DNA from: Flavobacterium sp.
GTDB lineage: Bacteria; Bacteroidota; Bacteroidia; Flavobacteriales; Flavobacteriaceae
Reading direction: 5' to 3'
DNA length: 36,830 bases
Assembly: GCF_028712645.1 (NCBI RefSeq)
Contig: NZ_JAQTPQ010000005.1
Location: 1-36,830, forward strand
The translations under genes and the position numbers were made by a program. Position 1 is the first letter of the stretch. Every line of letters starts with the position of its first letter. Positions 8,812-24,384 of the stretch are shown one piece after another. The notes beneath the pieces were generated by a model. It was not told the origin of the DNA. It worked only from the letters and a program-made list of their open reading frames with translations, and made no database searches.

Positions 8812-9666
8812 CTATCTAACGTCAATATTCTGTATCAAATCGATATATAAATTAATTTTGTCTTTGAGTTCTTTTCTTGGTGAAATAAAATCTAGAAAAC
8901 CGTGTTCAAGAACAAATTCGGCAGTTTGAAAACCTTCTGGCAAATCTTTTCCAGTAGTGTCTTTTACAACTCTTGGTCCTGCAAAACCTATTAATGCTCC
9001 TGGTTCCGAAATATTGATATCTCCTAACATTGCATAAGAGGCTGTTGTTCCACCAGTTGTTGGATCTGTACACAAAGAAATATAAGGAATTTTAGCTTCG
9101 GCTAATTGGGCCAATTTTGCAGATGTTTTTGCTAATTGCATCAATGAATACGCAGCTTCCATCATTCTTGCTCCACCTGATTTTGAAATCATTACAAATG
9201 GAATGTTGTTTTTAATAGAGTGGTCAACTCCTCGGGCAATTTTTTCACCCACAACGCCACCTATTGAACCTCCAATGAAGGCAAAATCCATACAGCAAAC
9301 TACTAAATCTTTCCCTTTTGATTTTCCAACTCCTGTTCGAACCGCATCATTCAATTTGGTCTTGGCCATTGTGTCTTTCAAACGCTCCGAATATTTTTTG
9401 GTATCTACAAAATGCAAGGTGTCTTTCGACGTCATTTTAGCATCTAATTCAACGAATTCATTATCGTCAAACAATATTTCGAAATATTCTTTGCTACCAA
9501 TTCTAACGTGAAAATCATCTTCTGGACTTACATATAAGTTGCGAGCAAGTTCATCCGCATCTATCACTTTTCCTGTAGGGGATTTGTACCAAAGTCCTTT
9601 TGGCACATCCATTTTGTCCTCGGTGGGAGTCGTAATTCCTTTTCCTGTTCTTTTAAACCAAGCCAT
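8812..9666 (-). CDS. accD: Acetyl-CoA carboxylase carboxyltransferase subunit beta
   Basis: '[11 protein letters not shown]...', '[30 protein letters not shown]', '[18 protein letters not shown]'. Confidence 0.95.
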
Positions 9667-9670
9667 AATT

Positions 9671-9702
9671 AAGTTGGAAGTTAGAAGTTAGAAGTTGGAA
9701 GT
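9671..9702. repeat. Heptad tandem array (ACTTCYA)x4 plus a partial unit on the minus strand, 4 nt upstream of the accD ATG
   Basis: Plus strand: aagt-tggaagt-tagaagt-tagaagt-tggaagt. Confidence 0.85.
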
Positions 9703-9738
9703 AAATCCTTTTTCTAAATTCTTATTAATATTATTTTA

Positions 9739-9766
9739 CTTCGTACTTCGTATATTGTACTTCGTA
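9739..9766. repeat. Heptad tandem array x4 just after the fbaA stop codon
   Basis: Plus strand: cttcgta-cttcgta-tattgta-cttcgta; the third unit is degenerate but keeps register. Confidence 0.8.
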
Positions 9767-9768
9767 CC

Positions 9769-10836
9769 TTATAGTGTATTTACGTTATTCAAATCAGCAA
9801 ATGCTTGCTCTAATCTTGAGATGAATGTAACTTCACCTTCACGCAACCATTTTCTTGGATCGTAATATTTTTTATTAGGAGCGTCAGCACCAGTTGGGTT
9901 TCCAATTTGAGTTTTCAAATAGTCAATATTGTCAACCATAAAGTCACGAATTCCTTCAGTAAATGCAAATTGCAAGTCAGTATCGATATTCATTTTTATT
10001 ACACCGTAACTAATACCTTCTCTGATTTCTTCTAATGTAGAACCTGAACCACCGTGGAAAACAAAATCAACAGGATTTGGTTCAGTTTTGAATTTGTCTT
10101 GAACGTAATCTTGAGAATTTTTTAAGATTTTTGGAGTCAATTTTACATTACCTGGTTTGTAAACACCGTGAACATTTCCGAAAGAAGCTGCGATTGTAAA
10201 ACGTGGGCTTACTTTTGATAATTCTTCATAAGCATAAGAAACTTCAGAAGGTTGAGTGTATAATTTTGAACTATCAACATCAGAGTTGTCAACACCATCT
10301 TCTTCACCACCAGTTATTCCTAGTTCGATTTCTAATGTCATTCCCATTTTACTCATTCTAGTCAAATAGCCTTTGCAAATTTCGATGTTTTCTTCGATAG
10401 GCTCTTCAGATAAATCAATCATGTGCGAAGAGAATAATGGTTTTCCTGTTTCAGCAAAATGTTTTTCGGAAGCATCTAATAATCCATCAATCCAAGGCAA
10501 TAATTTTTTTGCACAGTGGTCAGTATGCAAAATTACTGTTGCTCCATAAGCTTCAGCCAAAGTGTGAATATGTTTTGCTCCAGCAATTCCACCAGCGATT
10601 GCTGCTTTTTCACCAGCATTAGAAAGTCCTTTTCCAGCGTTGAATTGAGCTCCTCCATTAGAAAATTGGATAATAACTGGCGCATTCAATTTTGCTGCAG
10701 TTTCAAGAACTCCATTTATTGTGTTTGAACCAGTTACATTTACTGCTGGAAGCGCAAAGCCTTTTTCTTTAGCATATTTAAAAATTTCCTGAACTTGGTC
10801 TCCTGTAGCTACGCCTGGTTTGATATTGTGTGACAT
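9769..10836 (-). CDS. fbaA: Class II fructose-bisphosphate aldolase
   Basis: 'FALPAVNVTGSNTINGVLETAAKLNAPVIIQFSNGG', 'VILHTDHCAKKLLPWIDGL', 'FVFHGGSGST'. Confidence 0.96.
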   Translation of the reverse strand: MSHNIKPGVATGDQVQEIFKYAKEKGFALPAVNVTGSNTINGVLETAAKLNAPVIIQFSNGGAQFNAGKGLSNAGEKAAIAGGIAGAKHIHTLAEAYGATVILHTDHCAKKLLPWIDGLLDASEKHFAETGKPLFSSHMIDLSEEPIEENIEICKGYLTRMSKMGMTLEIELGITGGEEDGVDNSDVDSSKLYTQPSEVSYAYEELSKVSPRFTIAASFGNVHGVYKPGNVKLTPKILKNSQDYVQDKFKTEPNPVDFVFHGGSGSTLEEIREGISYGVIKMNIDTDLQFAFTEGIRDFMVDNIDYLKTQIGNPTGADAPNKKYYDPRKWLREGEVTFISRLEQAFADLNNVNTL

Positions 10837-10899
10837 TTTAAATTTTTTAGTTGTTGTTTTTATTGTTTTATGGTTTGCAAAAATAAGAATTAATTAGCA

Positions 10900-13455
10900 T
10901 TAGAAAGGATAATTTATTCCAAAATTAAAAACAGAGTGTGCAAAATTATATTCATTAAACCATCTTTTGTTGATTTCATTGGCGGGATTGTAGGTTTTAA
11001 ATCCAAAATCAAAACGAACTATAAAAAAACTAAAATCATATCGCAGCCCAAATCCTGAACCTAAAGCGAGTTCTTTTAAGTCTTTCATTCCAGAAAAAGT
11101 AGCTTTTTCATCAGTTACATTGTCTAAAACATTCCAAATATTGCCTGCATCTGCAAACAGCGCTCCTTTTAAAGCGCCTAATATTTTAAATCTATATTCT
11201 GCACTCATTGCAATTTTCATATTGGCTTCATTGAAATCATTTACGGCTCCGCTGCTTCCAGGACCAAGGCTGTAGGGTTGCCAAGCTCTATTGTCATTAG
11301 ATCCGCCCGAGAAATAACTCCTTGAGAATGGAATATTGTTCGAATTTCCGTAAGGAATTGCAATTCCAAAAAAGGTTCTTACTGCTAAAATTCTTTCTTT
11401 AGAAAAATCCCAATGTTTTATATAATCGAATTCTGTTTTTATGTATTCTGAATATTCTAAATTAAATATTTTATAATTACCATTTTGGTTTTTTGGTAAG
11501 CTTGCTGCATTTGAAATCAAAGATAATATAGAACCAGCTGATTCAATTTTTGTTCTAAAAAGATAAAAATTATTGTCCTGTAAATCTGTTTTGGTGGTTT
11601 TTGAAAAAGTAAAATTGGTAGCTAAAATAAAATCATCCTCGGTAAGCCTGATTCGTCGTTCTTCAATACTATTTATGGTTTTATAGTCGGCTGCGCTAGG
11701 AAAAATGGTTGGAGTAGTGCTTAATACATCATTTGTAAATCCTGTTGTTCCGCTTTCAATTATCAAATCGCCATTTGTGTTTACATAGGTAGAATTTGTG
11801 TTGTATATTTTTCCTAAATTATTTAATGCTTTATAAGAAGTGCCATACACATTAAAATAATTTGCTGGATTTAAATTTCGAACATATTGAATATTCAAAA
11901 GATCAAAACGAGCCGTATTATTCTTTTTAGGTGTCCAATTATAAGATATTGAGCCAGTTAGATTCTCTTTATTTAATCCAATGTTTCTTTGTGATGACAA
12001 TCCAGTTGAGATGAGTGTTGAGGGAATCATACTTTTGGGAATGATTTTTTCAGTATTAAAAGGAAACCATATTCGTGGAATATTTAGCTTTAAATCGATT
12101 CCATATTCAGAGACGTTAAAGAAATTATTTTGAGGATTTGCCAAATCTTTTGACGATCCAATATTTCCTCTTCCTGCAATTTCCAGTGTTTCGGCACCAT
12201 TAAACACGTTTCGAATCGTTTCGGAAATGCTATATGCAATTCCGAAGTCTTGAATATTTGAGTGAGTGACATCAAGTGAGGTTCCAAAACTGTATTTTTT
12301 TCTGGGGGTTAAGTAAATTTTCGCAATCAAGGATTGAGCGGTGGAATCTCTTTTATCTGCCGTATAAAGAATGGTTGGATAATTAAAAATTTTAAGATTG
12401 TTCAAATAACGTGAAGTCAAAACGGTTTTGTTGTCAGCAAATAAACCTCCTTTTGTAATAAATATGGCATCAGTAATTGCTCTTGGTCTGTATTTTAGCC
12501 TGTTTTGACTGTATAAATGGAAATTATTATAAGTTGTGCTGTCGGTAATTTTTGAATTTGTATTGGTTGGAGAATAATCAGTGTAAATGTTTACATCACT
12601 TATTTTAAATATTTTGAACGGTTCGGTTTTAGTTGAGTCGTTCGCTTGATACGAATAATCGTTTATATTTAAATTTACATTTACCTTGTTTTCAGTGTTT
12701 AGGGTATCTATAACAAAAGTTACATCAGTGGGTTGAAAATTATATACGCCATTATTTTTAAAATGATTTGTAATTCGGTTTTTCTCATTATCGAAGTCTT
12801 CTATTTTATATTGTTTTCCAGATTTTAAGAAAGAACCAGATTTAATTGACTGAAACATTGAATCCAAAACCTGAGTACTAATGGTTGCTTTAATAGTATC
12901 TAAAATATATGGTTTTCCTGTTGTTATAGAATATTTTATTTTAGCTTTTTTAGCACTAAGACTGTCTAGCTTATAATTTGCTTTTACATTAAAAAAACCA
13001 TCATTAAAATAAAAATATTTTAGACGAACAATGGATCTATCAGATTTTGTTGAGTCAATGATTATAGGAGCTTCCCCCGTTTTTTTTAAGAAATCGTGTA
13101 TTCCGTGATACCAAAAAGATTTTCCAAGTCTATCAACTTGTTTTGCCGACAGCAATTTTGACATTCGTTCATATTTGCCTGAGTGATTGGTAAATTTAGC
13201 TTGAAAAGTCGAGTCAGGATTTGGATTAGCTAGATTAAACAAATTTAATCGTAATCGATAGCCTAGGATGTTGCTGTTTGGTTTTTGATACAATTGATTA
13301 ATAACATCTTCAGTCTTTACGGCCTTATTATTTACCAAAATTTCATTTTTGGTAAGAAGTTGTTTGCCTTCTGGAACTCTTCTCACGGTATTACAAGCCG
13401 AGATAATTATTCCTATTACAATAAATGTTGCTATTTTTGTGCTAATCTTTTTCAA
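10900..13455 (-). CDS. tamL: TamA/BamA-family outer-membrane lipoprotein (TamL-like)
   Basis: Lipoprotein signal 'GIIISACNTVRRVPEGKQLL'; C-terminal Omp85 barrel 'SYFSGGSNDNRAWQPYSLGPGS...GLRYDFSFFIVRFDFGFKTYNP'. Confidence 0.8.
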   Translation of the reverse strand: MKKISTKIATFIVIGIIISACNTVRRVPEGKQLLTKNEILVNNKAVKTEDVINQLYQKPNSNILGYRLRLNLFNLANPNPDSTFQAKFTNHSGKYERMSKLLSAKQVDRLGKSFWYHGIHDFLKKTGEAPIIIDSTKSDRSIVRLKYFYFNDGFFNVKANYKLDSLSAKKAKIKYSITTGKPYILDTIKATISTQVLDSMFQSIKSGSFLKSGKQYKIEDFDNEKNRITNHFKNNGVYNFQPTDVTFVIDTLNTENKVNVNLNINDYSYQANDSTKTEPFKIFKISDVNIYTDYSPTNTNSKITDSTTYNNFHLYSQNRLKYRPRAITDAIFITKGGLFADNKTVLTSRYLNNLKIFNYPTILYTADKRDSTAQSLIAKIYLTPRKKYSFGTSLDVTHSNIQDFGIAYSISETIRNVFNGAETLEIAGRGNIGSSKDLANPQNNFFNVSEYGIDLKLNIPRIWFPFNTEKIIPKSMIPSTLISTGLSSQRNIGLNKENLTGSISYNWTPKKNNTARFDLLNIQYVRNLNPANYFNVYGTSYKALNNLGKIYNTNSTYVNTNGDLIIESGTTGFTNDVLSTTPTIFPSAADYKTINSIEERRIRLTEDDFILATNFTFSKTTKTDLQDNNFYLFRTKIESAGSILSLISNAASLPKNQNGNYKIFNLEYSEYIKTEFDYIKHWDFSKERILAVRTFFGIAIPYGNSNNIPFSRSYFSGGSNDNRAWQPYSLGPGSSGAVNDFNEANMKIAMSAEYRFKILGALKGALFADAGNIWNVLDNVTDEKATFSGMKDLKELALGSGFGLRYDFSFFIVRFDFGFKTYNPANEINKRWFNEYNFAHSVFNFGINYPF

Positions 13456-13491
13456 GTGTTCTCAAATATTTAATTCAAAAGTACATTTTTT

Positions 13492-14220
13492 ATGGTTAGT
13501 AAAAACCAAATAAAACTTATAACGAGTTTGCAGCAAAAAAAATATCGATTTGCCCATCAATTATTTTTTGCCGAAGGCATAAAGGTAATTCAAGAATTGC
13601 TAGAATCAAACTTTGAATTAGAACATTTGTACACAACTCAAAATGATTTTGAGGAAGTTCCGAATGCTAAAAAGACACTAATTCACGAAAGTGATTTGAA
13701 AAAAATTAGTGCCCTTTCGACTCCCAATTCCTGCTTGGCATTATTTAAAATCCCTGCCGAAAAAAACATAAAAGAATCAGGACTAATTCTCGCTCTAGAT
13801 TCTATTCGTGATCCTGGAAATTTAGGAACCATTTTGCGAATGTGTGACTGGTTTGGTATTGACCAGCTCATTTGTTCGAAAGAGACTGTTGCTATTTATA
13901 ATCCAAAAGTAGTTCAAGCAACAATGGGTTCCATCGCCAGAGTCAATGTTAATTATATAGATTTGGTTTCTTTTATTAGTAAAACTAAACTACCGGTTTT
14001 CGGCACTTTTATGGACGGAAAAAATATTTATAAATCCGTTTTTCCACAAGAAGGAATCATCATTATGGGAAATGAAGCCAACGGAATTTCGCCGGAACTT
14101 GAAAAAACAATCAAAAACAGGCTTACCATTCCTCGTTTTGGCAATCTCCAAAAAACAGAAAGTTTGAATGTAGCAACTGCCACCGCAATTGTTCTAAGCG
14201 AATTTAGAAGAAATAATTAA
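13492..14220 (+). CDS. TrmH/SpoU family RNA 2'-O-methyltransferase
   Basis: 'LALDSIRDPGNLGTILRMCDWFGIDQLICS', 'IMGNEANGIS', 'SLNVATATAIVLSEFRR'. Confidence 0.93.
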   Translation: MVSKNQIKLITSLQQKKYRFAHQLFFAEGIKVIQELLESNFELEHLYTTQNDFEEVPNAKKTLIHESDLKKISALSTPNSCLALFKIPAEKNIKESGLILALDSIRDPGNLGTILRMCDWFGIDQLICSKETVAIYNPKVVQATMGSIARVNVNYIDLVSFISKTKLPVFGTFMDGKNIYKSVFPQEGIIIMGNEANGISPELEKTIKNRLTIPRFGNLQKTESLNVATATAIVLSEFRRNN

Positions 14221-14225
14221 TCTTT

Positions 14226-14942
14226 CTAGTGAAAGGTAAAATTGATAAAAACAGCTCTGGTTTTCATCGATTCTATGTTTCCTGTCCAAGGACTATTGGG
14301 GTCATTATCGCGAATTAATTCGTCATTAATTCCAAAAACACCTCTTATAGAAGGAGAGAAAATAAAATATTCCGAAAAAATATCGATACCAAGACCCAAC
14401 TCATAATTCGTAGTCCAAGGTTTTACCCTGAAACGATTTTCTAAATTATCATCTTTTGATTTCGAATTACTCGACAAATTTAATGTTGCTGAAACTCCAC
14501 CTAGAATGTAAGGACGAATATTTCCTGTTCTGAGTGAAGAAAATTTAAGCAATAACGGAAAGTGAATATTAGTGCTGTTTACTTCCCTGATTTTCTGAGA
14601 AGATGTAGGTGTCGTTGCAAAATAGCTGTCGGGATAATTAAAAACTCTCAGCGTATAATATAAACCAGGTTCAAAACGCAAACTCACATATTCTTGAAGC
14701 TTCAAATCGGCTACAAGACCCACATTGAAACCAGTGTTTTTTTTTATGAGAATGTTCTCTCCAACGGTTTTGTAATTTATTTTGAAGTCATAGGAATTGA
14801 ATCCCAAGTAAAAACCAAAATATAGTTTTTGTTTCTGAAAATTTTCCAGATTAATAATTGGATCCTTACTAAATATACCTTTGGTTTGTGTATATCCTTT
14901 TATGGTCAAGGCAAGTAGAAGTAAGACAATTATTTTTTTCAT
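14226..14942 (-). CDS. porT: PorT-family outer-membrane beta-barrel protein (type IX secretion component)
   Basis: 238 aa with signal peptide and beta-barrel composition; directly downstream of ubiE, an arrangement I recall for Bacteroidetes porT. Confidence 0.75.
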   Translation of the reverse strand: MKKIIVLLLLALTIKGYTQTKGIFSKDPIINLENFQKQKLYFGFYLGFNSYDFKINYKTVGENILIKKNTGFNVGLVADLKLQEYVSLRFEPGLYYTLRVFNYPDSYFATTPTSSQKIREVNSTNIHFPLLLKFSSLRTGNIRPYILGGVSATLNLSSNSKSKDDNLENRFRVKPWTTNYELGLGIDIFSEYFIFSPSIRGVFGINDELIRDNDPNSPWTGNIESMKTRAVFINFTFH

Positions 14943-14943
14943 A

Positions 14944-15675
14944 TTATTTTTTGGAAGCTGAATAAATTGTTGCTACACCAAATGTTTGCGGCAAAGCTAC
15001 AACATCTATAAACCCAATTTTTTTCAAAATATTGTTCAACGCCTCTCCATAAGGGAAGGCTGCCGCGGATTCTGATAAATATCCATAAGCAACATTGTCT
15101 TTTGAGAATAGTTTTCCAATGATGGGAAGAATATTTTTACTATAAAAAGTATAAACTTGCTTGTACGGAAATTTTTCTGGAACCGAAGTTTCGAGAATCA
15201 CAAAAACGCCATTAGGTTTCAAAACTCTTACTATTTCAGCTAATCCTTTCTCAAGATTTTCGAAATTTCTAACGCCAAAAGCAACTGTAATAGCATCGAA
15301 ATAACTGTCTTCAAAAGGTATATTTTCTGAATCGCCCAAAACCATTTCAATCGTGTTGGCTAAGTTTTTTTCTTGAATTTTTTTCTTCCCCACTTCAAGC
15401 ATTCCTGCCGAAATATCCAATCCGATAATCTTTTCAGCCTTGGTTTGTGCCATTAATATCGCCAAATCACCAGTTCCTGTTGCAATGTCTAAAACTGTTT
15501 TAGGATTAGATTTGCTTACAATTTGCAACACTTTTTTGCGCCATTTAACGTCAATTCCAAAAGAAATAACCCGATTGAGGTTGTCGTAATTGCCTGAAAT
15601 AGTGTCGAACATTGTGGCTACTTGTTCTTTTTTGCTTAAAGTGGAATCTTTATAGGGGGTTATGTTTTTTGACAT
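14944..15675 (-). CDS. ubiE: Demethylmenaquinone methyltransferase
   Basis: '[26 protein letters not shown]', '[13 protein letters not shown]', '[19 protein letters not shown]'. Confidence 0.95.
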
Positions 15676-15721
15676 TTTTTAAAATTTGAGGCAAAGGTAA
15701 ACTAGATTTTTGGATAATATA

Positions 15722-15791
15722 AATTTAACCGCAGATTCACAGATTTTTTTTCTTCTATTTTTGATAAAATCGGAAAATCTGAGGTTGAATT
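15722..15791. repeat. Imperfect inverted-repeat element (16-nt arms, 14/16 match) in the ubiE-folA spacer
   Basis: Left arm aatttaaccgcagatt (15722-15737); right arm aatctgaggttgaatt (15776-15791). Confidence 0.6.
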
Positions 15792-15798
15792 AAGTAGT

Positions 15799-16284
15799 TT
15801 ATTTTCTTCTAACAAATGTTTGATAAGTATAGTCAAAAAGGTGTCTTTCGTCTTTTGGCTGAAATGATTCAGAAGTCAATTCCCAAATCGTTGGGTCGAT
15901 TTCTGGGAAATAGACATCAGCATCAAACGAATGATGCACTCTTGTAATGTCGAGTTGGTCAGCTAAATCAATGGATTGTTTGTAAATTTCGCCTCCGCCA
16001 ATAATGAATAAGTCTTCATTTTTTGGGCAGGCTGCAATAGCTTTTTCAAGATTTGGAACTACAATACATCCTTCGTACTCAAAATCTTTTTGTCGTGTTA
16101 TTATGACGTGTGTTCTGTTTGGTAAAGGTTTAGGGAAACTTTCAAAAGTTTTTCTTCCCATAATAATATGATGTCCTGAAGTAAGTGTCTTGAAGCGTTT
16201 GAAATCATTAGGCAAATGCCAAAGTAAATCATTGTTTTTTCCTAAAGCATTGTTTTCGGCGACAGCCGCAATGATGATGATCAT
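15799..16284 (-). CDS. folA: Dihydrofolate reductase
   Basis: 'IIAAVAENNALGKNNDLLWHLPNDFKRFKTLTSGHHIIMGRKTFESF', 'LFIIGGGEIYKQ'. Confidence 0.96.
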   Translation of the reverse strand: MIIIIAAVAENNALGKNNDLLWHLPNDFKRFKTLTSGHHIIMGRKTFESFPKPLPNRTHVIITRQKDFEYEGCIVVPNLEKAIAACPKNEDLFIIGGGEIYKQSIDLADQLDITRVHHSFDADVYFPEIDPTIWELTSESFQPKDERHLFDYTYQTFVRRK

Positions 16285-16287
16285 ATT

Positions 16288-16629
16288 TTATTGTGGTTTG
16301 TTTGAGGGTTCGTCTTCGACTTGTTTTTGCAATTGGTCAATTTTTCGTTGTTGTTGAGTAACAAGCCTATCAATCTGTTCTCTTTCCCAGTTTTTATTCA
16401 TAAAGCGATCTGTGATAAACACTTTAATGAAGTGCAAAATGAATAAGAAAGTCCAAACAGTAATTACCCAAATTGCCCAATTTGTAGTATAACCAAAAGC
16501 GTCAAAATGATTCGCCAAAGATAAAAAGATACTTCCTAAGAGAAATAAAACAAAATGAAAATAGAGCCTTTTTTTTTGATTTAACCTTTTTCTAGCATAT
16601 TCGTATTGCTCGTGCTGTTCTTTTTCCAT
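16288..16629 (-). CDS. 2TM domain-containing protein
   Basis: Two predicted TM helices with flanking charged/coiled regions; 'YEYARKRLNQKKRLYFHFVLFLLGSIFLSL...'. Confidence 0.75.
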   Translation of the reverse strand: MEKEQHEQYEYARKRLNQKKRLYFHFVLFLLGSIFLSLANHFDAFGYTTNWAIWVITVWTFLFILHFIKVFITDRFMNKNWEREQIDRLVTQQQRKIDQLQKQVEDEPSNKPQ

Positions 16630-16868
16630 TAATCAGAATTTAGTTCATAAAGGTAAAATTTATTTTGATTCGTCACTAATTTTGATTCGTGATTATTTAA
16701 CGAGAAAACGTTTTTGGTTTTGGAATATGAAAATTTTATCTATTTTAAATTAGGAATACGATTAAAAATTAAGGAAGTTTTTGCCATAGTCCTAAATCTT
16801 CATTCTAAATATTGGATGTCCAAAAAAAAATATTTTCTTTGTTACATAATTCTAAAAATGAAATAGTT

Positions 16869-17165
16869 ATGTCAATAAAGAAACAAGTTATAAAAACAAA
16901 ACCGGTTTGTAAAGTTACCTTTTCGGTAGAAGCTAAAGAAGCAAATGTTGCATCAGTTGTAGGAGATTTTAATAATTGGAATCCTGCTGATGGTGAATTG
17001 TCAAAATTGAAAAACGGAACTTTCAAAGGAGTTTTCGATTTACCAAAAGATGCGTCTTACGAATTCAAATACGTGATTGACGGTGTTTATGTAAACGACA
17101 GCGAAGCTGATTCTTACAAATGGAATGAATTTGCAGGAGCTGAAAACGGTGTTTTAACTGTTTAA
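16869..17165 (+). CDS. Isoamylase/CBM48-like early-set domain small protein; start reassigned to the ATG at 16869
   Basis: 'VTFSVEAKEANVASVVGDFNNWNPADGELSKLKNGTFKGVFDLPKDASYEFKYVIDGVY' is an early-set glycogen-binding-like fold. Confidence 0.8.
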   Translation: MSIKKQVIKTKPVCKVTFSVEAKEANVASVVGDFNNWNPADGELSKLKNGTFKGVFDLPKDASYEFKYVIDGVYVNDSEADSYKWNEFAGAENGVLTV

Positions 17166-17226
17166 TCTTTACTTTTGTCCCGTCCTAAAAAAACGATAGA
17201 GATTATTAGATAAAATTAAATATTAA

Positions 17227-17263
17227 ACGGTAGTAAAAAATTTTTTTTGCTACTGTTTTTTGT
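17227..17263. terminator. Bidirectional terminator between convergent CBM48-like and kinase genes
   Basis: acggtagtaaaaaa/ttttttttgctactgt imperfect dyad followed by a T tract. Confidence 0.7.
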
Positions 17264-17276
17264 TTTAGATGTTAAT

Positions 17277-19550
17277 TTATGCTCGGAAATATTTTTGAAT
17301 TAACGCCTTTAATTTATCAATGTTAATGGGTTTAGAAATATAGTCGTTGCATCCTGCAGCGATAGCTTCCTCGCGGTCGTTCGCTAATCCGTAGGCGGTT
17401 TGTGCAATTATAATCACGTCTTTGTTGAATTGTCTTATGTGTCTGGTGGCTTCGTGACCATTCATTTCTGGCATATTGACATCGATCAATATCAGGTCTA
17501 TATCTGGATTGTTAAGGCTGGTTTCTACGGCTTCGATGCCTGTGCTAGCCTTGAGAATAGTATCGCAAAATAAACTTACGGCTTTTGTAATTAGCAATTT
17601 TGAAATGGCATCGTCTTCAACAATTAATATTTTCAGATTTTTAATTTGATTTGATTCATCAACCTCCAGATTATTTTTTTTAGGAATAATTTCTTTTTCT
17701 GGTTGTGTAATATAAGGAATGGTAAAATAAAAAGTAGATCCTTTTCCTTCTTCACTTTCCAGCCAAATTTTTCCGCCCAACATTTCTACATAAGCTTTTG
17801 AAATAGAAAGCCCCAATCCTGCCCCTTGAAGGACTCTCTTATCAGTAATGCCAACTTGAATAAAGCGGTCAAACACTGCTTTTTGTTTGTCTTTTGGAAT
17901 TCCTATTCCAGTGTCTTTTACATAAAATTCGAGTTCGGGAACAGCTTTATCGATGGATTGTTTTAGTTTGTAGCCAAAATCTATAGTTCCTTTATGGCTG
18001 TATTTTATAGCATTCTTAACCAGGTTGATGAGTACAGCATAAACTTTCTCTCGGTCTGTTTTTATTATGGATTCTTTGGTGGGCAAGGAGATTGTGTAGC
18101 TAAGTTGCAGTCCATTGGAATTGACTTCTGGTTTGAAGAATGTATAAATATATTCGATTTGCTTGTTGATATTCGTTTCTGAAAGCGAAACATCCATCAG
18201 TCCAGATTCTATTTTCGAAATATCAACAATATCATTGATGATGTTCAACATTCGAACACCACTACGCTCAATAATTCGGATGTATTCCTGCTGGTCTTCA
18301 CCTGAAATTTCTGGGTTTTTGAGCAGTTCGGCAAATCCTAAAATTCCGTTCATTGGAGTTCTAATTTCGTGGCTCATATTAGCAAGGAAAGCTGATTTTA
18401 AGCGGTCGCTTTTTTCGGCTTGCTCTTTGGCTTTGATCATTTCTTCTTCAGCTTTTTTCTTTTCGGTAATATCAAAGCGGATAGACAAGAATTGGAAAGG
18501 GACACTATTGGTGTCTAGAAAAGGAATAATAGTGCCATGAATCCAATAGAATTTTCCTTCTTTATCCTTGTTTTTAATTTCTCCAATCCACACTTTTCCT
18601 GACAATATAGTGTCCCACATTTCTCTAAAAAAGGTTTTGGCGTGAAAATTTGAGCTAACCATACGGTGTGTTTTTCCTATAAGTTCTTCTCGGCTATATT
18701 TCGAAATTTTGCAAAAATTATCATTTACTGAAAGGATTACTCCATCTTTGTCAGTAATGGCAGTAATAGCAGATTGGTCTAATGCAAATTTGTAGTCTTC
18801 AAGATTCTTGATATTTTTCTTTAGAGCTATATCTGTTTTTTCTTTAGCATCCAGCATTTTATTGAATTCATTAGCCAAAATTGCTGCTTCATCGTTTCCT
18901 GTTAAATGGGATCGAGCCGAGGTTTTCCCATCAGCTACTTCGTTGATGGTTTTTTGGACAGAATGAAGTCTACGGGTAATATAATGTCCCACAAACCATG
19001 CTATTACGGATCCAATCAAAATAGCCAAAAGGCCATAAACTACTCCATTATTTGTGATATTTTTGAGTTGGTTTGCAACCTTATTTTGATTTAGACCAAT
19101 ACGCACCCAACCCACATTTTTGTTGTAGAGATTTACAGGAACGGCGACATCTACCAAGTCAGGGGTTTTGCTAAGGACAATGGTCTTAAAATTTTGAGGC
19201 AAATCGAGAAGAAACAGTCCTTCTTTAGATTCGTCAGTATGTGCTAAAATTTTGCCTTGCTCATTTGTTATTATGGCAAAAACAAGTTGAGGATAACGAC
19301 GTTGCGAATTGACTAATTCTTGAAGACCGGCAATGTCATTTGAGGTCAACCAGCTAGAAGAAGTAGTTGAAAGAGCCTGTGCAAGCCCTTGAGCTTCTTC
19401 GGTTTGATGGTCGAGAATCATCTCGCATTGACGTTGAGTTAAATCAATTATAAAAACTGACATCATTACTGCATGGACAATTGCTACGCTTAAGATGAGT
19501 CGCCCTCGTAGGGAACCAAAAAAAATTTTTATTTTATGTTGGATCTTCAT
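17277..19550 (-). CDS. Hybrid sensor histidine kinase (periplasmic sensor, HAMP, PAS, HisKA, HATPase, REC)
   Basis: 'FLANMSHEIRTPMNGILGFAELLK', 'GAGLGLSISKAYVEMLGGKIWLESEEGKGSTF', C-terminal REC 'ILIVEDD...LILIDVNMPEMNGHEATRHIRQ...YISKPI'. Confidence 0.95.
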   Translation of the reverse strand: MKIQHKIKIFFGSLRGRLILSVAIVHAVMMSVFIIDLTQRQCEMILDHQTEEAQGLAQALSTTSSSWLTSNDIAGLQELVNSQRRYPQLVFAIITNEQGKILAHTDESKEGLFLLDLPQNFKTIVLSKTPDLVDVAVPVNLYNKNVGWVRIGLNQNKVANQLKNITNNGVVYGLLAILIGSVIAWFVGHYITRRLHSVQKTINEVADGKTSARSHLTGNDEAAILANEFNKMLDAKEKTDIALKKNIKNLEDYKFALDQSAITAITDKDGVILSVNDNFCKISKYSREELIGKTHRMVSSNFHAKTFFREMWDTILSGKVWIGEIKNKDKEGKFYWIHGTIIPFLDTNSVPFQFLSIRFDITEKKKAEEEMIKAKEQAEKSDRLKSAFLANMSHEIRTPMNGILGFAELLKNPEISGEDQQEYIRIIERSGVRMLNIINDIVDISKIESGLMDVSLSETNINKQIEYIYTFFKPEVNSNGLQLSYTISLPTKESIIKTDREKVYAVLINLVKNAIKYSHKGTIDFGYKLKQSIDKAVPELEFYVKDTGIGIPKDKQKAVFDRFIQVGITDKRVLQGAGLGLSISKAYVEMLGGKIWLESEEGKGSTFYFTIPYITQPEKEIIPKKNNLEVDESNQIKNLKILIVEDDAISKLLITKAVSLFCDTILKASTGIEAVETSLNNPDIDLILIDVNMPEMNGHEATRHIRQFNKDVIIIAQTAYGLANDREEAIAAGCNDYISKPINIDKLKALIQKYFRA

Positions 19551-20587
19551 TTTCTGTCTATTTTTCGAACTTCTTTTTCAAATCGATCTATGTAAGGTTG
19601 TACCTTATTGTAATCCTCATTGGTGGCTTTTGTGAAACGTGCAGTTTCCATATTAGAAAGAATTGTTTTCCCTTCTGCAGTTTCATAAAGTTCGATTAGA
19701 TATTTTTGAACTTGATTTTTAATATCTTCAGGAATATCATTTCGAACCATTACAGAGTTATTTATCATCGATTCAGTTTCCCAAATTACCATTAATTGAG
19801 AGGCTTCCTTTGGATGTTCTTTCTGAAAAATTTTCCAAGGAGGTGGCCAGGTTACACCAGATGCTGTGGAGTTTAAATAAACATTCATTATTGAAGATTC
19901 CTGAGAACCCACATAACGGTTTTCAATATCTTTATTAATATCTATTCCATTTGTAAAAAGAAAATACTGAGGCATAACGCAGGCGGCAAGAGCTGTGCAC
20001 GAAGGATAACTTATAGCTTTGCCTTTTAGGTCAGATGGTTTGCTGATGCCACTGTCTTTACGAACCAAAAATATCCCCTTGAAATCTTTTGGGTCTCCAG
20101 CCTGTGCAATTACATTATAGCCATATTTCATAGCTTGGAGCGTTTGCCATGGATTTGGAAGAATAAATTCAGGATCTCTGTTTTTATATTTCTCTTCAAA
20201 ATTAGCGTAATCTCTTGATGTCTCAACTGAGAACTGTACTCCTTTTAATCGACTGTTTAAATAAACGATAAGAGGACGATAAACTTGTATTAGTTTTGCT
20301 GGATTATGTAGCGCATGAATGGCAAAATGATAAACAGGAGTTGTTTGTGACGAAGGAGCTATCCCATATTTTGGTTGCTTGACTTCCGTTTTTTGTTTGC
20401 ACCCCGAAATGGGCAATAAAAGAATTATCGTAAAACATAACCCAATGAATAAAGTATTGATTGAATGTGATTTTAAGGTAGTGCTGCTTTTGAAAGTTAC
20501 AATTTTTTGCTTGTGTCCAAAGATGTTGTCGATGAAGGTTGTTTTCCAAAATGATTTGTTTAGTATTCTGTAATTTTTGGGTTTCAT
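19547..20587 (-). CDS. PhnD-like periplasmic substrate-binding lipoprotein
   Basis: Lipobox 'LLLPISGC'; 'HFAIHALHNPAKLIQVYRPLIVYLNSRLKGVQFSVETSRDYANFEEKYKN' matches the phosphate/phosphonate-type SBP layout; 4-nt overlap with the kinase gene. Confidence 0.85.
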   Translation of the reverse strand: MKPKNYRILNKSFWKTTFIDNIFGHKQKIVTFKSSTTLKSHSINTLFIGLCFTIILLLPISGCKQKTEVKQPKYGIAPSSQTTPVYHFAIHALHNPAKLIQVYRPLIVYLNSRLKGVQFSVETSRDYANFEEKYKNRDPEFILPNPWQTLQAMKYGYNVIAQAGDPKDFKGIFLVRKDSGISKPSDLKGKAISYPSCTALAACVMPQYFLFTNGIDINKDIENRYVGSQESSIMNVYLNSTASGVTWPPPWKIFQKEHPKEASQLMVIWETESMINNSVMVRNDIPEDIKNQVQKYLIELYETAEGKTILSNMETARFTKATNEDYNKVQPYIDRFEKEVRKIDRK

Positions 20588-20834
20588 AAATGCAGCTTTT
20601 CGGGGGGAACGAATTTCTTCATTAACTGAGTTTACTTGTCTAATTTTAGAACTATTTATGTCACTTTAAATTATTCGAACTTAGTGTAATCAAATATAGT
20701 GAATAATTAATTATGATTAAATATTATAGCCAGTAATTTAACTGTTGAATCCTATTAAAGTAGTTCTTGAAAAGCTAATAAGAAGTTTAGTAATTTTGGT
20801 TTTTGTTATCAAATTGCGGTTGAAATTTATCTAA

Positions 20835-20870
20835 CAAAAACTAGCTCAATTAATTGATTTAATCGAGCTT
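20835..20870 (-). terminator. Terminator downstream of thyA
   Basis: Minus strand: agctcgatta..taattgagct followed by agtttttg. Confidence 0.65.
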
Positions 20871-20895
20871 TTCTAAATATAAAGGAAAGAATTTT

Positions 20896-21747
20896 TTATA
20901 CCGCCACACTTCCTTTTATCAAAGCGTGTGGTTCATAACCTTCGAGCGTGAAATCCTCGAAAGTAAAATCGAAAATGTCTTTTATAGTAGGATTCAAAAT
21001 CATTTTTGGTAATGATTTTGGTTTTCGCGATAATTGTAATTCAAGTTGCTCAAAATGGTTGTTGTAAATATGTGCGTCACCAAAAGTATGAATAAATTCG
21101 CCTGCTTGTAATCCGCAAACTTGGGCAATCATCATCGTCAATAACGCATAAGAAGCAATGTTAAAAGGAACTCCAAGGAAAATATCAGCACTTCGTTGAT
21201 ACAATTGACAAGACAACCTTCCTTTCTCCTCTCCTTTGGAGAGGTCGGGTGAGGATACATAGAATTGAAAAAAAGCGTGGCAAGGAGGCAAGGCCGCTTT
21301 ATTATTGGCTACATTTTCTGAAAATGATTTTAAATTATCTGGTAAAACACTTGGATTCCAAGCCGAAACTAGCATTCTACGGCTGTTAGGATTTGTTTTT
21401 AATTCTTGAATAAGATCAGTAATTTGGTCAATTTCTTCGCTGTTCCAGTTACGCCATTGATGTCCATAAATAGGTCCCAAATTGCCATTTTCATCTGCCC
21501 AAGCATCCCAGATTTTAACACCGTTTTCTTGAAGATATTCAATATTCGTATCCCCTTTCAGAAACCAAAGCAATTCATAAATAATAGATTTCAGGTGTAA
21601 CTTTTTGGTAGTAACCATTGGAAAACCTTCGCTTAAATCAAATCGCATTTGGTATCCAAATACACTTTTTGTTCCTGTTCCTGTTCGATCTCCTTTTTGA
21701 TTTCCGTTCTCTAAAACGTGTTTTACTAGGTCTAAGTATTGTTTCAT
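20896..21747 (-). CDS. thyA: Thymidylate synthase
   Basis: '[33 protein letters not shown]', '[10 protein letters not shown]', '[26 protein letters not shown]'. Contains an unusual insert [13 protein letters not shown]. Confidence 0.96.
21226..21256. repeat. Palindromic repeat-like sequence inside the thyA coding region
   Basis: ctCCTCTCCtttGGAGAGGtcgggtgaggat: perfect 7-bp stem with 3-nt loop (21228-21244) plus GTGAGG tail; encodes the non-consensus insert between FYV and LSCQLYQ. Confidence 0.65.
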
Positions 21748-21752
21748 TCTTG

Positions 21753-21800
21753 GTTTAATCGGTTAAACGATTAATCGGTTAACCGGTTAACCGATTAAAC
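21753..21800. repeat. Octamer tandem array (GNTTAANC)x6, containing a 28-bp perfect palindrome at 21771-21798, 5 nt upstream of the thyA ATG
   Basis: gtttaatc-ggttaaac-gattaatc-ggttaacc-ggttaacc-gattaaac; palindrome ttaatcggttaacc|ggttaaccgattaa. Confidence 0.9.
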
Positions 21801-21809
21801 AATTTGTTA

Positions 21810-22430
21810 CTATCTTTTCGAAATTTCGTCTCTAATTTTGGCAGCTTTTTCATAATCCTCGTGCTCTACCGCTTGGTCTAGCAATTCATTTAATTCCTGT
21901 AAACTATGTTTTGAATAAATTTCGCCTGATTGGTTACTTTCTTCTTGTCCAAAAGTTTCTGGATTGGAAAGAATGTCGTCAATTTCTTGGGAGTCTTTGT
22001 CGCTATCCAAAGGATTATTTTTTAAATAGATTCCAGCTTTGTCCAAGATGTTTTTGTAAGTAAAAATAGGAGCGTTAAATCGCAATGCCAAAGCAATAGC
22101 ATCGGATGTTCTTGCATCTATAATTTCCTCGATTTTATCTCTTTCGCAAATGATACTCGAATAAAAAACGCCATCAACTAGTTTATGTATAATGACTTGT
22201 TTTACTACAATATCAAATCGATCGGCAAAATTCTTGAACAAATCGTGAGTCAAAGGACGTGGTGGTCTTATTTCTTTTTCCAATGCAATTGCTATGGATT
22301 GAGCTTCGAAAGCACCGATGACGATGGGCAACTTTCGTTCGCCGTCAACCTCATTTAGAATCAATGCGTAAGCTCCGTTTTGAGTTTGACTGTAGGATAT
22401 TCCTTTTATGGATAATTTTACTAAGCTCAT
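21810..22430 (-). CDS. Bifunctional nuclease (BFN/DNase-RNase) domain protein with C-terminal UVR motif
   Basis: 'LPIVIGAFEAQSIAIALEKEIRPPRPLTHDLF', 'DARTSDAIALALRFNAPIF'; C-terminal 'LLDQAVEHEDYEKAAKIRDEI'. Confidence 0.92.
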   Translation of the reverse strand: MSLVKLSIKGISYSQTQNGAYALILNEVDGERKLPIVIGAFEAQSIAIALEKEIRPPRPLTHDLFKNFADRFDIVVKQVIIHKLVDGVFYSSIICERDKIEEIIDARTSDAIALALRFNAPIFTYKNILDKAGIYLKNNPLDSDKDSQEIDDILSNPETFGQEESNQSGEIYSKHSLQELNELLDQAVEHEDYEKAAKIRDEISKR

Positions 22431-22596
22431 ATATTGTACAATAAAAAGCGCCTAAGTGCTCTATTTATGGATTGTTTTATCTTAAAAATAAAAATGCAAT
22501 TTTAATCAAAAAATGGGAAACAAAAAAGTTACCTAGAAGCAAAGATACGAATATCTTGATTGTAGGTAACTATATTTTTTTTGAAGAATTCTAAAT

Positions 22597-23565
22597 TTAT
22601 GAATGCGAGGCTTTAAAGGCTTTTAGTTTTTCAGTTAATCTTGGAACCACATCAAAGGCATCTCCCACAACTCCATAATCTGCGACTTTAAAGAAAGGTG
22701 CTTCAGGATCTATATTGATTACTAATTTTACTTTTGATGAGTTGATTCCTGCAATATGTTGTATCGCTCCCGAAATCCCGATGGCAATATATAAATTGGC
22801 CGAAACAGGTTTTCCTGTTTGTCCTACGTGTTCTGAATGAGGTCTCCAATCTAAATCGGAAACGGGTTTTGAACAAGCAGTTGCAGCGCCAAGAACAGCG
22901 GCTAAATCTTCAATCATTCCCCAGTTTTCAGGGCCTTTCAATCCACGGCCACCAGAAACCACAATGTCGGCATCGGCAATGGAAACTTTTCCAGATACCT
23001 TTTCAACAGATTCTACTTTTATTCCAAAATCATTGTCCCCAATAGTTGGATTGAAATCCTCTTGAGTCAAAGTTGAAGTACTTTCGAAAATACCGTAGGA
23101 GTTTTTGGCTAAGCCAAGAATTTTTACATCGGTTGAAATTTCAGTGATGTTGAAAGCTTTGGTTGAAAAAGCATTTCTACGAACCTGAAAAGGTAAAGTG
23201 TTTACTGGCAATCCTACCACATTTGAAGCGAAACCAGCTTCTAGCGAAACGGCAACAAGAGGTGAGAGGTACATACTGTCAGTGGTTGATGAAAGTAAAA
23301 CTAGTTTTGCGCCTTCTTTTTGGGCAGCTTGTTTGATAACGTCGGCGTACGCTTTCGCTGAAAAGCCAGCTAATTTATCATTGCTTACTTTCAAGACTTT
23401 GTCGACTCCGTATTTTGATAATTCCGAAACATCTGCCGTGTTTATAGTTACGGCTGTAACTGTTGTTCCCAATGTTTCTGCTACTTTTTTTGCATAAGAA
23501 GCTAATTCGAAAGCTACTTTTCTGAATTTTCCTTCTGCGGATTCTGCATATATTAATATTGACAT
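22597..23565 (-). CDS. etfA: Electron transfer flavoprotein subunit alpha
   Basis: 'VSGGRGLKGPENWGMIEDLAAVLGAATACSKPVSD', 'HVGQTGKPVSANLYIAIGISGAIQHIAGI'. Confidence 0.95.
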   Translation of the reverse strand: MSILIYAESAEGKFRKVAFELASYAKKVAETLGTTVTAVTINTADVSELSKYGVDKVLKVSNDKLAGFSAKAYADVIKQAAQKEGAKLVLLSSTTDSMYLSPLVAVSLEAGFASNVVGLPVNTLPFQVRRNAFSTKAFNITEISTDVKILGLAKNSYGIFESTSTLTQEDFNPTIGDNDFGIKVESVEKVSGKVSIADADIVVSGGRGLKGPENWGMIEDLAAVLGAATACSKPVSDLDWRPHSEHVGQTGKPVSANLYIAIGISGAIQHIAGINSSKVKLVINIDPEAPFFKVADYGVVGDAFDVVPRLTEKLKAFKASHS

Positions 23566-23573
23566 AATTTTTT

Positions 23574-23636
23574 GTTTAAAGTTTCAGGTTTAAAGTTTCA
23601 AGTTGCGCACTTAACACTAAATACTGGACACTGATT
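23574..23636. repeat. Nine consecutive in-register degenerate heptads filling almost the whole etfB-etfA spacer
   Basis: gtttaaa-gtttcag-gtttaaa-gtttcaa-gttgcgc-acttaac-actaaat-actggac-actgatt. Confidence 0.75.
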
Positions 23637-23637
23637 A

Positions 23638-24384
23638 CTATATAACTTTCGCTTCGTTGTGTAATAAATTAATTAATTCATCTAAATTATCTGGAGCGAC
23701 TAATTTCACTGCAGATTTAGGAGCGGGTTTTTCAAACTTTATCGCTTTTGTATTTATCGCTGCTTCAACAGGTTCAACAACTGTTAGTGTTTTTGATCTT
23801 GCAGTCATAATTCCTCTCATATTGGGGATGCGCAAATCTTTTTCTTCGACCAATCCTTTTTGTCCACCAATTATTATTGGTAAACTTGTCGAAATAGTTT
23901 CCCTTCCTCCGTCAATTTCACGGATTGCTTTTACGTTTGAACCATCAACGGTAATATCTGTACAAGAATTCAGAAAATTATATCCCAAAATTCCAGCAAT
24001 CATTCCTGGAACCATTCCGCCATTATAGTCTAATGATTCTTTTCCTGCAATGATAACATCGAAAGCTCCATTTTTTATGACTTCAGCAAGTTGTTTGGCA
24101 ACGAAAAAACTGTCGGTTGGATTGGCATTTACTCGAATCGCATCGTTAGCACCAATAGCTAATGCTTTTCTTAAAGTAGGTTCGGTTTCTGGCCCTCCTA
24201 CATTGGCAACCGTGACTGTTGCGCCTTGTTGTTCTTGGAACCAAATAGCCCTAGTTAAGCCATATTCGTCATTCGGATTGATTACAAACTGAACACCATT
24301 GGCATCAAATTGAGAATCATCAGAGGTAAAATTAATTTTTGAAGTAGTATCAGGAACGTGGCTGATGCAAACTAATATTTTCAT
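23638..24384 (-). CDS. etfB: Electron transfer flavoprotein subunit beta
   Basis: 'MKILVCISHVPDTTSKINF', 'VQFVINPNDEYGLTRAIWFQE', 'IIAGKESLDYNGGMVPGMIAGILGYNF'. Confidence 0.95.
   Translation of the reverse strand: MKILVCISHVPDTTSKINFTSDDSQFDANGVQFVINPNDEYGLTRAIWFQEQQGATVTVANVGGPETEPTLRKALAIGANDAIRVNANPTDSFFVAKQLAEVIKNGAFDVIIAGKESLDYNGGMVPGMIAGILGYNFLNSCTDITVDGSNVKAIREIDGGRETISTSLPIIIGGQKGLVEEKDLRIPNMRGIMTARSKTLTVVEPVEAAINTKAIKFEKPAPKSAVKLVAPDNLDELINLLHNEAKVI

Follow-up and report, generated by a model that had tools for sequence, protein, structure and literature searches.

In Flavobacterium the spacer between the genes fbaA and accD holds a predicted hairpin cassette of roughly 80 bases, the arms of which are built from 7-nucleotide (nt) tandem repeats, or heptads, of opposite polarity. 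We studied this element in a contig of Flavobacterium sp. (NZ_JAQTPQ010000005.1, positions 1 to 36,830; the whole of these 36,830 nt is called the window) and at the same locus in 80 relatives, giving a comparison of 81 species. Comparison of these species shows an architecture that is placed at fixed sites, where whole cassettes are replaced by unrelated repeat families with the predicted fold kept, and it suggests that the shape of the spacer rather than its sequence may have a role in the control of the downstream gene. Judged by their sequences, fbaA-accD and a second junction, atpD-atpC, are the strictest sites of the cassette.

A hairpin between fbaA and accD

Most of the 81 fbaA-accD spacers hold two heptad arrays of opposite polarity, for example ATTTTAGATTTTAGATTTT...AAAATCTAAAATCTAAAAT, and the spacer measures between 37 and 127 nt in 81/81 species. 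When the spacers were folded as RNA and compared with shuffled versions of themselves, z was below -2 in 74/81 (median z -5.5), while 69/81 folds were at or past the best 1% of their own shuffles. The stem begins a median of 4 nt past the fbaA stop codon, and 16 nt separate its end from the ATG of accD. The control junction just upstream of fbaA reaches z<-3 in 1/78 species and purH-mreB does so in 1/71; most other junctions in the neighbourhood of accD are without hairpin signal.

The whole spacer cassette of the window is 102 nt long (9667..9768; this and the arrays and genes of the window given below lie on the minus strand), and a hairpin is present at the orthologous site in 74/81 Flavobacterium species. 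Its 5' arm consists of TACGAAG/CTTCGTA-type heptads directly after the fbaA stop (9737..9767; period 7 in Tandem Repeats Finder, TRF), and its 3' arm of ACTTCCA/ACTTCTA heptads that end 4 nt before the accD ATG (9671..9702; TRF period 7, 4.6 copies, 92%, with a period-7 score of 20). The two arms are of inverted polarity to each other (GAAGT vs ACTTC), a feature overlooked in an initial annotation of the window, which had described such arrays as the immediate 5' leaders of the next gene. That description is not supported as it stood, since what dominates is an inverted pair of arrays that runs from the stop codon and halts some 15 nt short of the next start. The stem is kept in three species (L102, L163 and L133) with few or no heptads, which argues that structure is conserved and not leader length or period. 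By predicted pairing, the arms are complementary across species beyond chance at both fbaA-accD and atpD-atpC.

One record included in the comparison, L099 (CALPPA020000015.1), is titled as a Klebsiella pneumoniae metagenome-assembled genome; its accD is 92% identical to that of the window and falls among Flavobacterium, and the record is apparently mislabelled.

Polarity of the arms and the start site

The 3' arm at fbaA-accD contains fewer G than C in 74/81 species. AUG triplets occur 36 times in the 5' arms and twice in the 3' arms, and would occur 73 times if the 3' arms were flipped; the corresponding counts at atpD-atpC are 27, 1 and 36. Base composition in the final 16 nt ahead of the start is 56% A and 4% G, and positions -3, -6 and -12 hold A in 79, 70 and 79% of these tails, compared with 61, 52 and 61% for 622 genes from the sampled genomes. 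According to published ribosome profiling in F. johnsoniae, A at those positions, low structure and a scarcity of nearby AUGs are marks of efficient initiation (PMC6847099).

Folded spacers could also act at the level of the transcript, as an attenuator, a partial terminator, an RNase processing site or a segmental stabiliser of mRNA similar to the repetitive extragenic palindromic (REP) elements. Strong stems do occur between genes that are expected to differ in dosage, such as those for the aldolase and acetyl-CoA carboxylase, and ATP synthase contains three beta subunits to one epsilon subunit. Convergent spacers contain real terminators, with z<-2 in 67–90% of cases, hence folded spacers matter in these genomes. 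However, a T-rich tract follows the stem in only 3/81 fbaA-accD spacers, the U-tract terminators of the same genomes look different, and arrays are also found between genes the products of which should be made in nearly equal amounts (etfB-etfA, nuoB-nuoC), so that we consider a transcript-level element quite improbable. With the promoter box TAnnTTTG present in 1/81 spacers and the T-rich tract in so few, the spacers look internal to operons rather than like promoter or terminator regions. Both an intrinsic terminator and a promoter-bearing spacer were rejected at fbaA-accD on these counts.

Turnover of the arm sequence

At least seven unit families are found in the arms at fbaA-accD, and the two arms of a spacer share their family in at least 65/81 species. 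One of these families, ACTGAAT/ACTGAAC, is related to the TAACTGA heptad known from other bacteria. At least 40 changes of family are needed on the tree of fbaA and accD. Sister species with 96–97% identity in the flanks carry unrelated hairpins (L164/L147, L107/L109 and L116/L128/L123), and among pairs with flanks at least 93% identical the spacer identity is two-peaked, with 61 pairs below 0.65, none between 0.65 and 0.75 and 21 above. The distant species L106 and L122 hold cassettes of the same family that are 0.95 identical, compared with 0.83 for their flanking genes. In predicted arm pairing, uncorrected for kinship, the arms of one spacer pair at -23.0 kcal/mol, against -20.4 when one is swapped within its family (own better in 57/76) and -7.9 when swapped between families (own better in 80/81).

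The replacement of at least seven families by one another means that one binding motif cannot explain the arrays, as the initial annotation had argued from the differing units of the window, and a single motif was rejected because the unit families are unrelated. We also hold it very improbable that the arrays bind an RNA- or DNA-binding protein (of S1, Csp or Csr type, as for TAACTGA) that acts on translation. The heptads are start-proximal and operon-internal, and are found upstream of rplC as in Beggiatoaceae, which speaks for such binding; yet the interchanging families have no shared motif, and complementarity is conserved even in spacers with few or no heptads.

The cassette is at least 85% identical to the same site of another species in 42/81 cases (median best identity 0.86), while 0/81 cassettes reach this identity at another site, which favours allelic replacement at the site over hopping. 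These values bear on the possibility that the cassettes belong to a mobile or dispersed family, resembling REP elements and bacterial interspersed mosaic elements (BIME), miniature inverted-repeat transposable elements (MITE) or cyanobacterial short tandemly repeated repetitive (STRR) sequences, for which gene junctions would be permissive targets. Related arrays are indeed dispersed in the window genome (44 matches to ACTTNNA x3 vs 8 in the reversed control, and octamers at several loci), Y1 transposases, of the superfamily that includes the REP-associated tyrosine transposases (RAYTs), are present in 7/7 Flavobacterium genomes, and spacers are short in other genera. Set against this, there is no common unit or end, no target duplication was seen, many families occupy one site, and all species have the cassette in the same place between the same two genes. 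A mobile family is thus decidedly improbable, and a transposed element is not supported because the cassettes form site-specific lineages.

Other junctions with arrays

The atpD-atpC junction, located through the ACTTCTA-family unit that the window genome carries there, provides an independent replicate. Period-7 arrays are present in 30/30 genomes, with z<-2 for the fold in 29/30, and the anatomy is near-identical to that of fbaA-accD (5' offset 4, 3' tail 14, length 77). Own arms pair at -20.1 and swapped arms at -10.4. The window genome combines a CAGTTAG-type 5' arm with an ACTTCTA-type 3' arm at this junction, and the spacer folds with z -4.4 although the families are mixed. Arrays of the ACTTCTA family are also seen in the window genome upstream of atpC, hisS and nuoC, on C177 (L300/L321), C349 (L298) and C213 (L302).

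Less regular sites include nuclease-thyA, where many species have GTTTAATCG/CGATTAAAC octamers, others have AAGCTTA heptads and L135 has a spacer of 25 nt, and etfB-etfA, where heptads are frequent and a significant hairpin is found in only a minority of species, the window not among them. Further array junctions in the sampled genomes are rpsB-tsf, rpsJ-rplC, cysH-cysD, cysD-cysN, thiS-thiC, accB-accC and atpA-atpG, together with metH-metF in three genomes and nuoB-nuoC in at least one. NCBIfam confirms tsf, rpsB, rplC, metF, cysD, cysN, thiC, accB, accC, atpA, atpD and atpG; the genes that we take to be rpsJ, metH, cysH, thiS, nuoB, nuoC, hisS and atpC were named from knowledge of their sequences. 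Another family of inverted repeats, AATTCCAAATTCC / GGAATTTGGAATT, occurs at mreB-mreC in about seven species, including L174, L117, L157, L162, L154 and L171.

Arrays across Flavobacterium spacers

Arrays were counted in parts of seven Flavobacterium genomes and of four from outside the genus, an array being defined by a score of at least 12 and the expectation being taken from dinucleotide shuffles. Genes were called with a home-made open reading frame (ORF)/dicodon scorer, and start distances are therefore approximate except for named genes. The 602 co-directional spacers of the seven Flavobacterium genomes contain 30 period-7 arrays vs 0.5 expected, 17 of period 14 vs 0.1 and seven of period 8 vs 0.6, with the remaining periods mostly close to the shuffle expectation. 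Matches are in excess by 9% at lag 7 (z=15.4) and by 4% at lag 8 (z=8.8), and smaller single-genome samples give the same lag-7 picture. Elsewhere, arrays were found in 4/127 divergent spacers, 3/126 convergent spacers and 1/113 spacers of the four non-Flavobacterium genomes. The expected excess at lags 7 and 8, mainly in co-directional spacers, is therefore real, with period 8 the rarer.

The related expectation, that arrays cluster near start codons, was confirmed in part. Among co-directional spacers 20/42 arrays have their end no more than 15 nt from the ATG, where random placement gives 12.8 (p=0.003), but this is not exclusive, as the nearer spacer end is the start side for 21 arrays and the stop side for 21. 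Arrays beginning within 15 nt of the stop codon number 17/42 vs 12.7 expected (p=0.06). This tendency and the even split indicate a rule that concerns both ends of the spacer and not the start codon alone. Separately, the heptad arrays at L022:7988-8047, L075:554-677 and L066:1000-1276 directly precede a TAnnTTTG promoter box and are not part of a leader, and this minority could affect transcription.

A possible role for the hairpin

To account for these observations we propose a two-armed cassette at operon-internal junctions that would be generated by slippage, strand switching and exchange, and kept for the sake of downstream initiation; we judge the case for this to be evenly balanced. Slippage in steps of 7 nt may create and resize the arrays (with 8-nt units in the thyA family), the inverted second arm may be made or repaired by short-range strand-switch copying, and whole cassettes may pass between species by recombination at the site. 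Where a polycistronic mRNA has no Shine-Dalgarno signals, the hairpin would fold the spacer into a self-contained stem that is unable to pair with the initiation region, keeping the next start codon in an open, A-rich and AUG-free site and bringing it spatially near the upstream stop. Downstream initiation could so be set relative to the upstream gene, and segment-specific mRNA decay may perhaps be affected too, the hairpin serving as a translational insulator or tuner. If any folding sequence would serve, free turnover of the arms would follow. That the expanded spacer is never lost at fbaA-accD or atpD-atpC among the species compared, and that neighbouring spacers rarely gain one, suggests that it has a task there; what this task does for the downstream gene is our reading of the comparative data. 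The narrower proposition is that the unit of selection would be a stem from stop to start, conserved in position and free in sequence, both arms of which are rewritten by a replication process and allelic exchange; we doubt this slightly more than we believe it.

Several observations weigh against such a selected hairpin. The fbaA-accD fold of the window itself is weak (z about -2.0 to -2.9), being among the weaker ones because its arms match at about 5/7 positions per unit, and the etfB-etfA spacer of the window has no significant hairpin when its fold is compared with shuffles (z -0.6). Little structure is found at fbaA-accD in L114 (z 0.3) or in L152, L153, L154, L155, L156 and L167 (z>-2). 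Mixed-family arms, as at etfB-etfA and at atpD-atpC of the window genome, imply that the arms need not match perfectly. Among other genera of the family, most fbaA-accD spacers are 3–58 nt long and unstructured, a few genera having ordinary terminator-like stems or long spacers, and since these genera manage without the hairpin, whatever function it has would be dispensable to the genes. Shared ancestry may contribute to the advantage that own arms show over swapped ones, and two-sided compensatory changes within families are few (2/20, 1/31 and 4/19 pairs). Identity between same-family pairs is raised over the final 30 nt of fbaA (p=0.001) and more weakly at -120..-60 (p=0.03), with no such excess in accD, and may reflect either homologous exchange or precise transposition of the cassette. 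Palindrome-making mutation and exchange alone could also yield matching arms.

The main rival is neutral mutation combined with negative selection, in which slippage and template switching make inverted arrays as a by-product, selection removes only those that harm initiation, and there is no positive function. Purging of this kind would leave self-folding arrays with AUG-free 3' arms. PMC4679880, citing Mrazek 2007, gives heptanucleotides as the most frequent long simple repeats of many bacteria, and hairpins are both created and repaired by template switching (PMC8794818). Arrays are also present at many junctions, including some divergent and convergent spacers, and etfB-etfA and nuclease-thyA retain them in many species with weak or lost structure. 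Against neutrality, the spacer is expanded in 81/81 species at fbaA-accD and 30/30 at atpD-atpC through dozens of replacements, neighbouring co-directional spacers of the same loci are without arrays, and deletion bias should yield bare short spacers, none of which is seen at these two junctions. We therefore regard the neutral account as rather unlikely. The spacer-generating process that was suggested at first, though it has a place as the source of the arrays in our own proposal, does not on its own explain why the fbaA-accD hairpin has persisted while its sequence was replaced at least 40 times.

If a selected hairpin is the correct explanation, these spacers would represent a functional non-coding element that is invisible to sequence-based comparative genomics, with the same site and shape but unrelated sequence in sister species, and inheritance would be by shape and position. 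The replacements at one junction, at least 40 in number, would then be natural experiments on how translation of neighbouring genes is separated or coupled without Shine-Dalgarno sequences, and would also be informative on the origin of palindromes and their maintenance by replication errors.

Arrays and genes of the window

The three arrays that the initial annotation placed before accD, etfA and thyA were all recovered from the sequence and with TRF, at the same positions and distances from the start codons. It also holds that they share period and placement and not unit sequence, the units being ACTTCTA/ACTTCCA, AGTNNNN/AACYTNA and GNTTAANC. Upstream of accD (8812..9666; acetyl-CoA carboxylase beta subunit, NCBIfam TIGR00515 above cut-off) lies fbaA (9769..10836; class II fructose-bisphosphate aldolase, NCBIfam NF006628/TIGR01520 above cut-off).

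The etfB-etfA spacer contains nine heptads in register, drawn from two different unit families: the 5' arm consists of five AGTNNNN heptads that overlap and follow the etfB stop (23605..23639), and the 3' arm of four AACYTNA heptads that end 8 nt before the etfA ATG (23574..23604; TRF period 7/14). The adjoining genes etfA (22597..23565) and etfB (23638..24384) encode electron transfer flavoprotein alpha-like and beta-like subunits, with NCBIfam E values of 1e-37 to 1e-48, below equivalog cut-offs, and 9e-24, below cut-off, respectively.

Six GNTTAANC octamers occupy 21753..21800 and end 5 nt before the ATG of thyA (20896..21747; thymidylate synthase, NCBIfam NF002497 above cut-off). The unit is self-complementary, so the array is an inverted repeat in itself, and it folds as a hairpin with z -5 to -6; related octamer arrays are present at a few other loci of the window genome. 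The gene upstream (21810..22430) has no NCBIfam family at 1e-20 and, following the initial annotation and our knowledge of such sequences, we take it to be bifunctional nuclease-like.

Two other features of this region were observed. The thyA gene contains an in-frame insert of 9 residues (21222-21262), where other species read SD-G, and the same place is filled in about half of the Flavobacterium species compared. The DNA of the insert includes the palindrome CTCTCCAAAGGAGAG (21229-21243), of which the window genome has 13 exact copies, or 21 if one mismatch is allowed, making it a REP-like palindrome within an enzyme gene. The spacer between etfA and the nuclease-like gene (about 22521-22572) holds a terminator-like stem, GTTACCTA...TAGGTAAC, followed by a T run, with a TATCTTTG box in its loop that corresponds to the consensus -7 promoter element (TAnnTTTG). 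The stem and its loop promoter box are also found, with other stem letters, in L147, L148, L158 and L094, and this spacer is possibly an overlapping terminator and promoter.

Comparison with known systems

Heptanucleotide arrays of the STRR type are known from cyanobacteria, and we know of no report of a paired-arm hairpin tied to particular gene junctions among them. Such long simple repeats, in the account of Mrazek 2007 that is cited in PMC4679880, resemble the present arrays in being of period 7, degenerate, intergenic and probably grown by slippage. STRR heptamers form arrays with a species-specific unit; the Flavobacterium arrays have the same period, with several units per genome. REP and BIME sequences are similarly extragenic palindromes within polycistronic messages that may stabilise mRNA, but they comprise one or a few families of 20–40 bp at many sites, whereas in Flavobacterium each site has unrelated sequences in site-specific lineages; no shared dispersed palindrome of 20–40 bp was found among the cassettes, with at least seven families and cross-site identity <0.85. 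The Flavo-1 RNA motif is likewise a structured intergenic RNA of Flavobacteriaceae, and an Rfam scan of the window gave 0 matches at the gathering threshold, Flavo-1 included.

The turnover of both arms together requires a process such as template switching, in which a perfect stem can arise, or its two arms be compatibly rewritten, through one replication event (Monttinen and Loytynoja 2022, PMC8794818). That study concerns RNA genes, while the Flavobacterium arms are tandem heptads and whole cassettes are apparently exchanged between species.

The closest precedent is the TAACTGA heptamer of Beggiatoaceae, Cyanobacteria and five Bacteroidetes. Its arrays precede start codons, and translational regulation was proposed for them without experiment (MacGregor 2015, PMC4679880). 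The initial annotation, which knew of no described function for heptads in Flavobacterium, was thus nearly right but had missed this parallel. We found no description of inverted heptads in Flavobacterium in the literature searched, most subscription journals being outside the search. Like the cassettes described here, TAACTGA repeats are 7-nt direct repeats, intergenic, of fixed polarity and a few nt from start codons, located inside core operons, including upstream of rplC, and mostly without a ribosome binding site. They also vary by insertions and deletions in 7-nt steps between related strains (PMC4679880). The Flavobacterium arrays share the period of 7 and the fixed polarity near the start, and none of the units in the window is TAACTGA. 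TAACTGA arrays differ in having a single unit, with one inverted pair in 170 sets (PMC4679880), where Flavobacterium has many families, mostly in inverted pairs that fold, and replacement of whole cassettes at orthologous sites. Period, placement and polarity are therefore known already, while the unit, the inverted pairing and the turnover of families at fixed sites set the Flavobacterium elements apart; should the proposed role be correct, the cassettes would link the scattered reports of heptamers before start codons in Beggiatoaceae, Cyanobacteria and Bacteroidetes.

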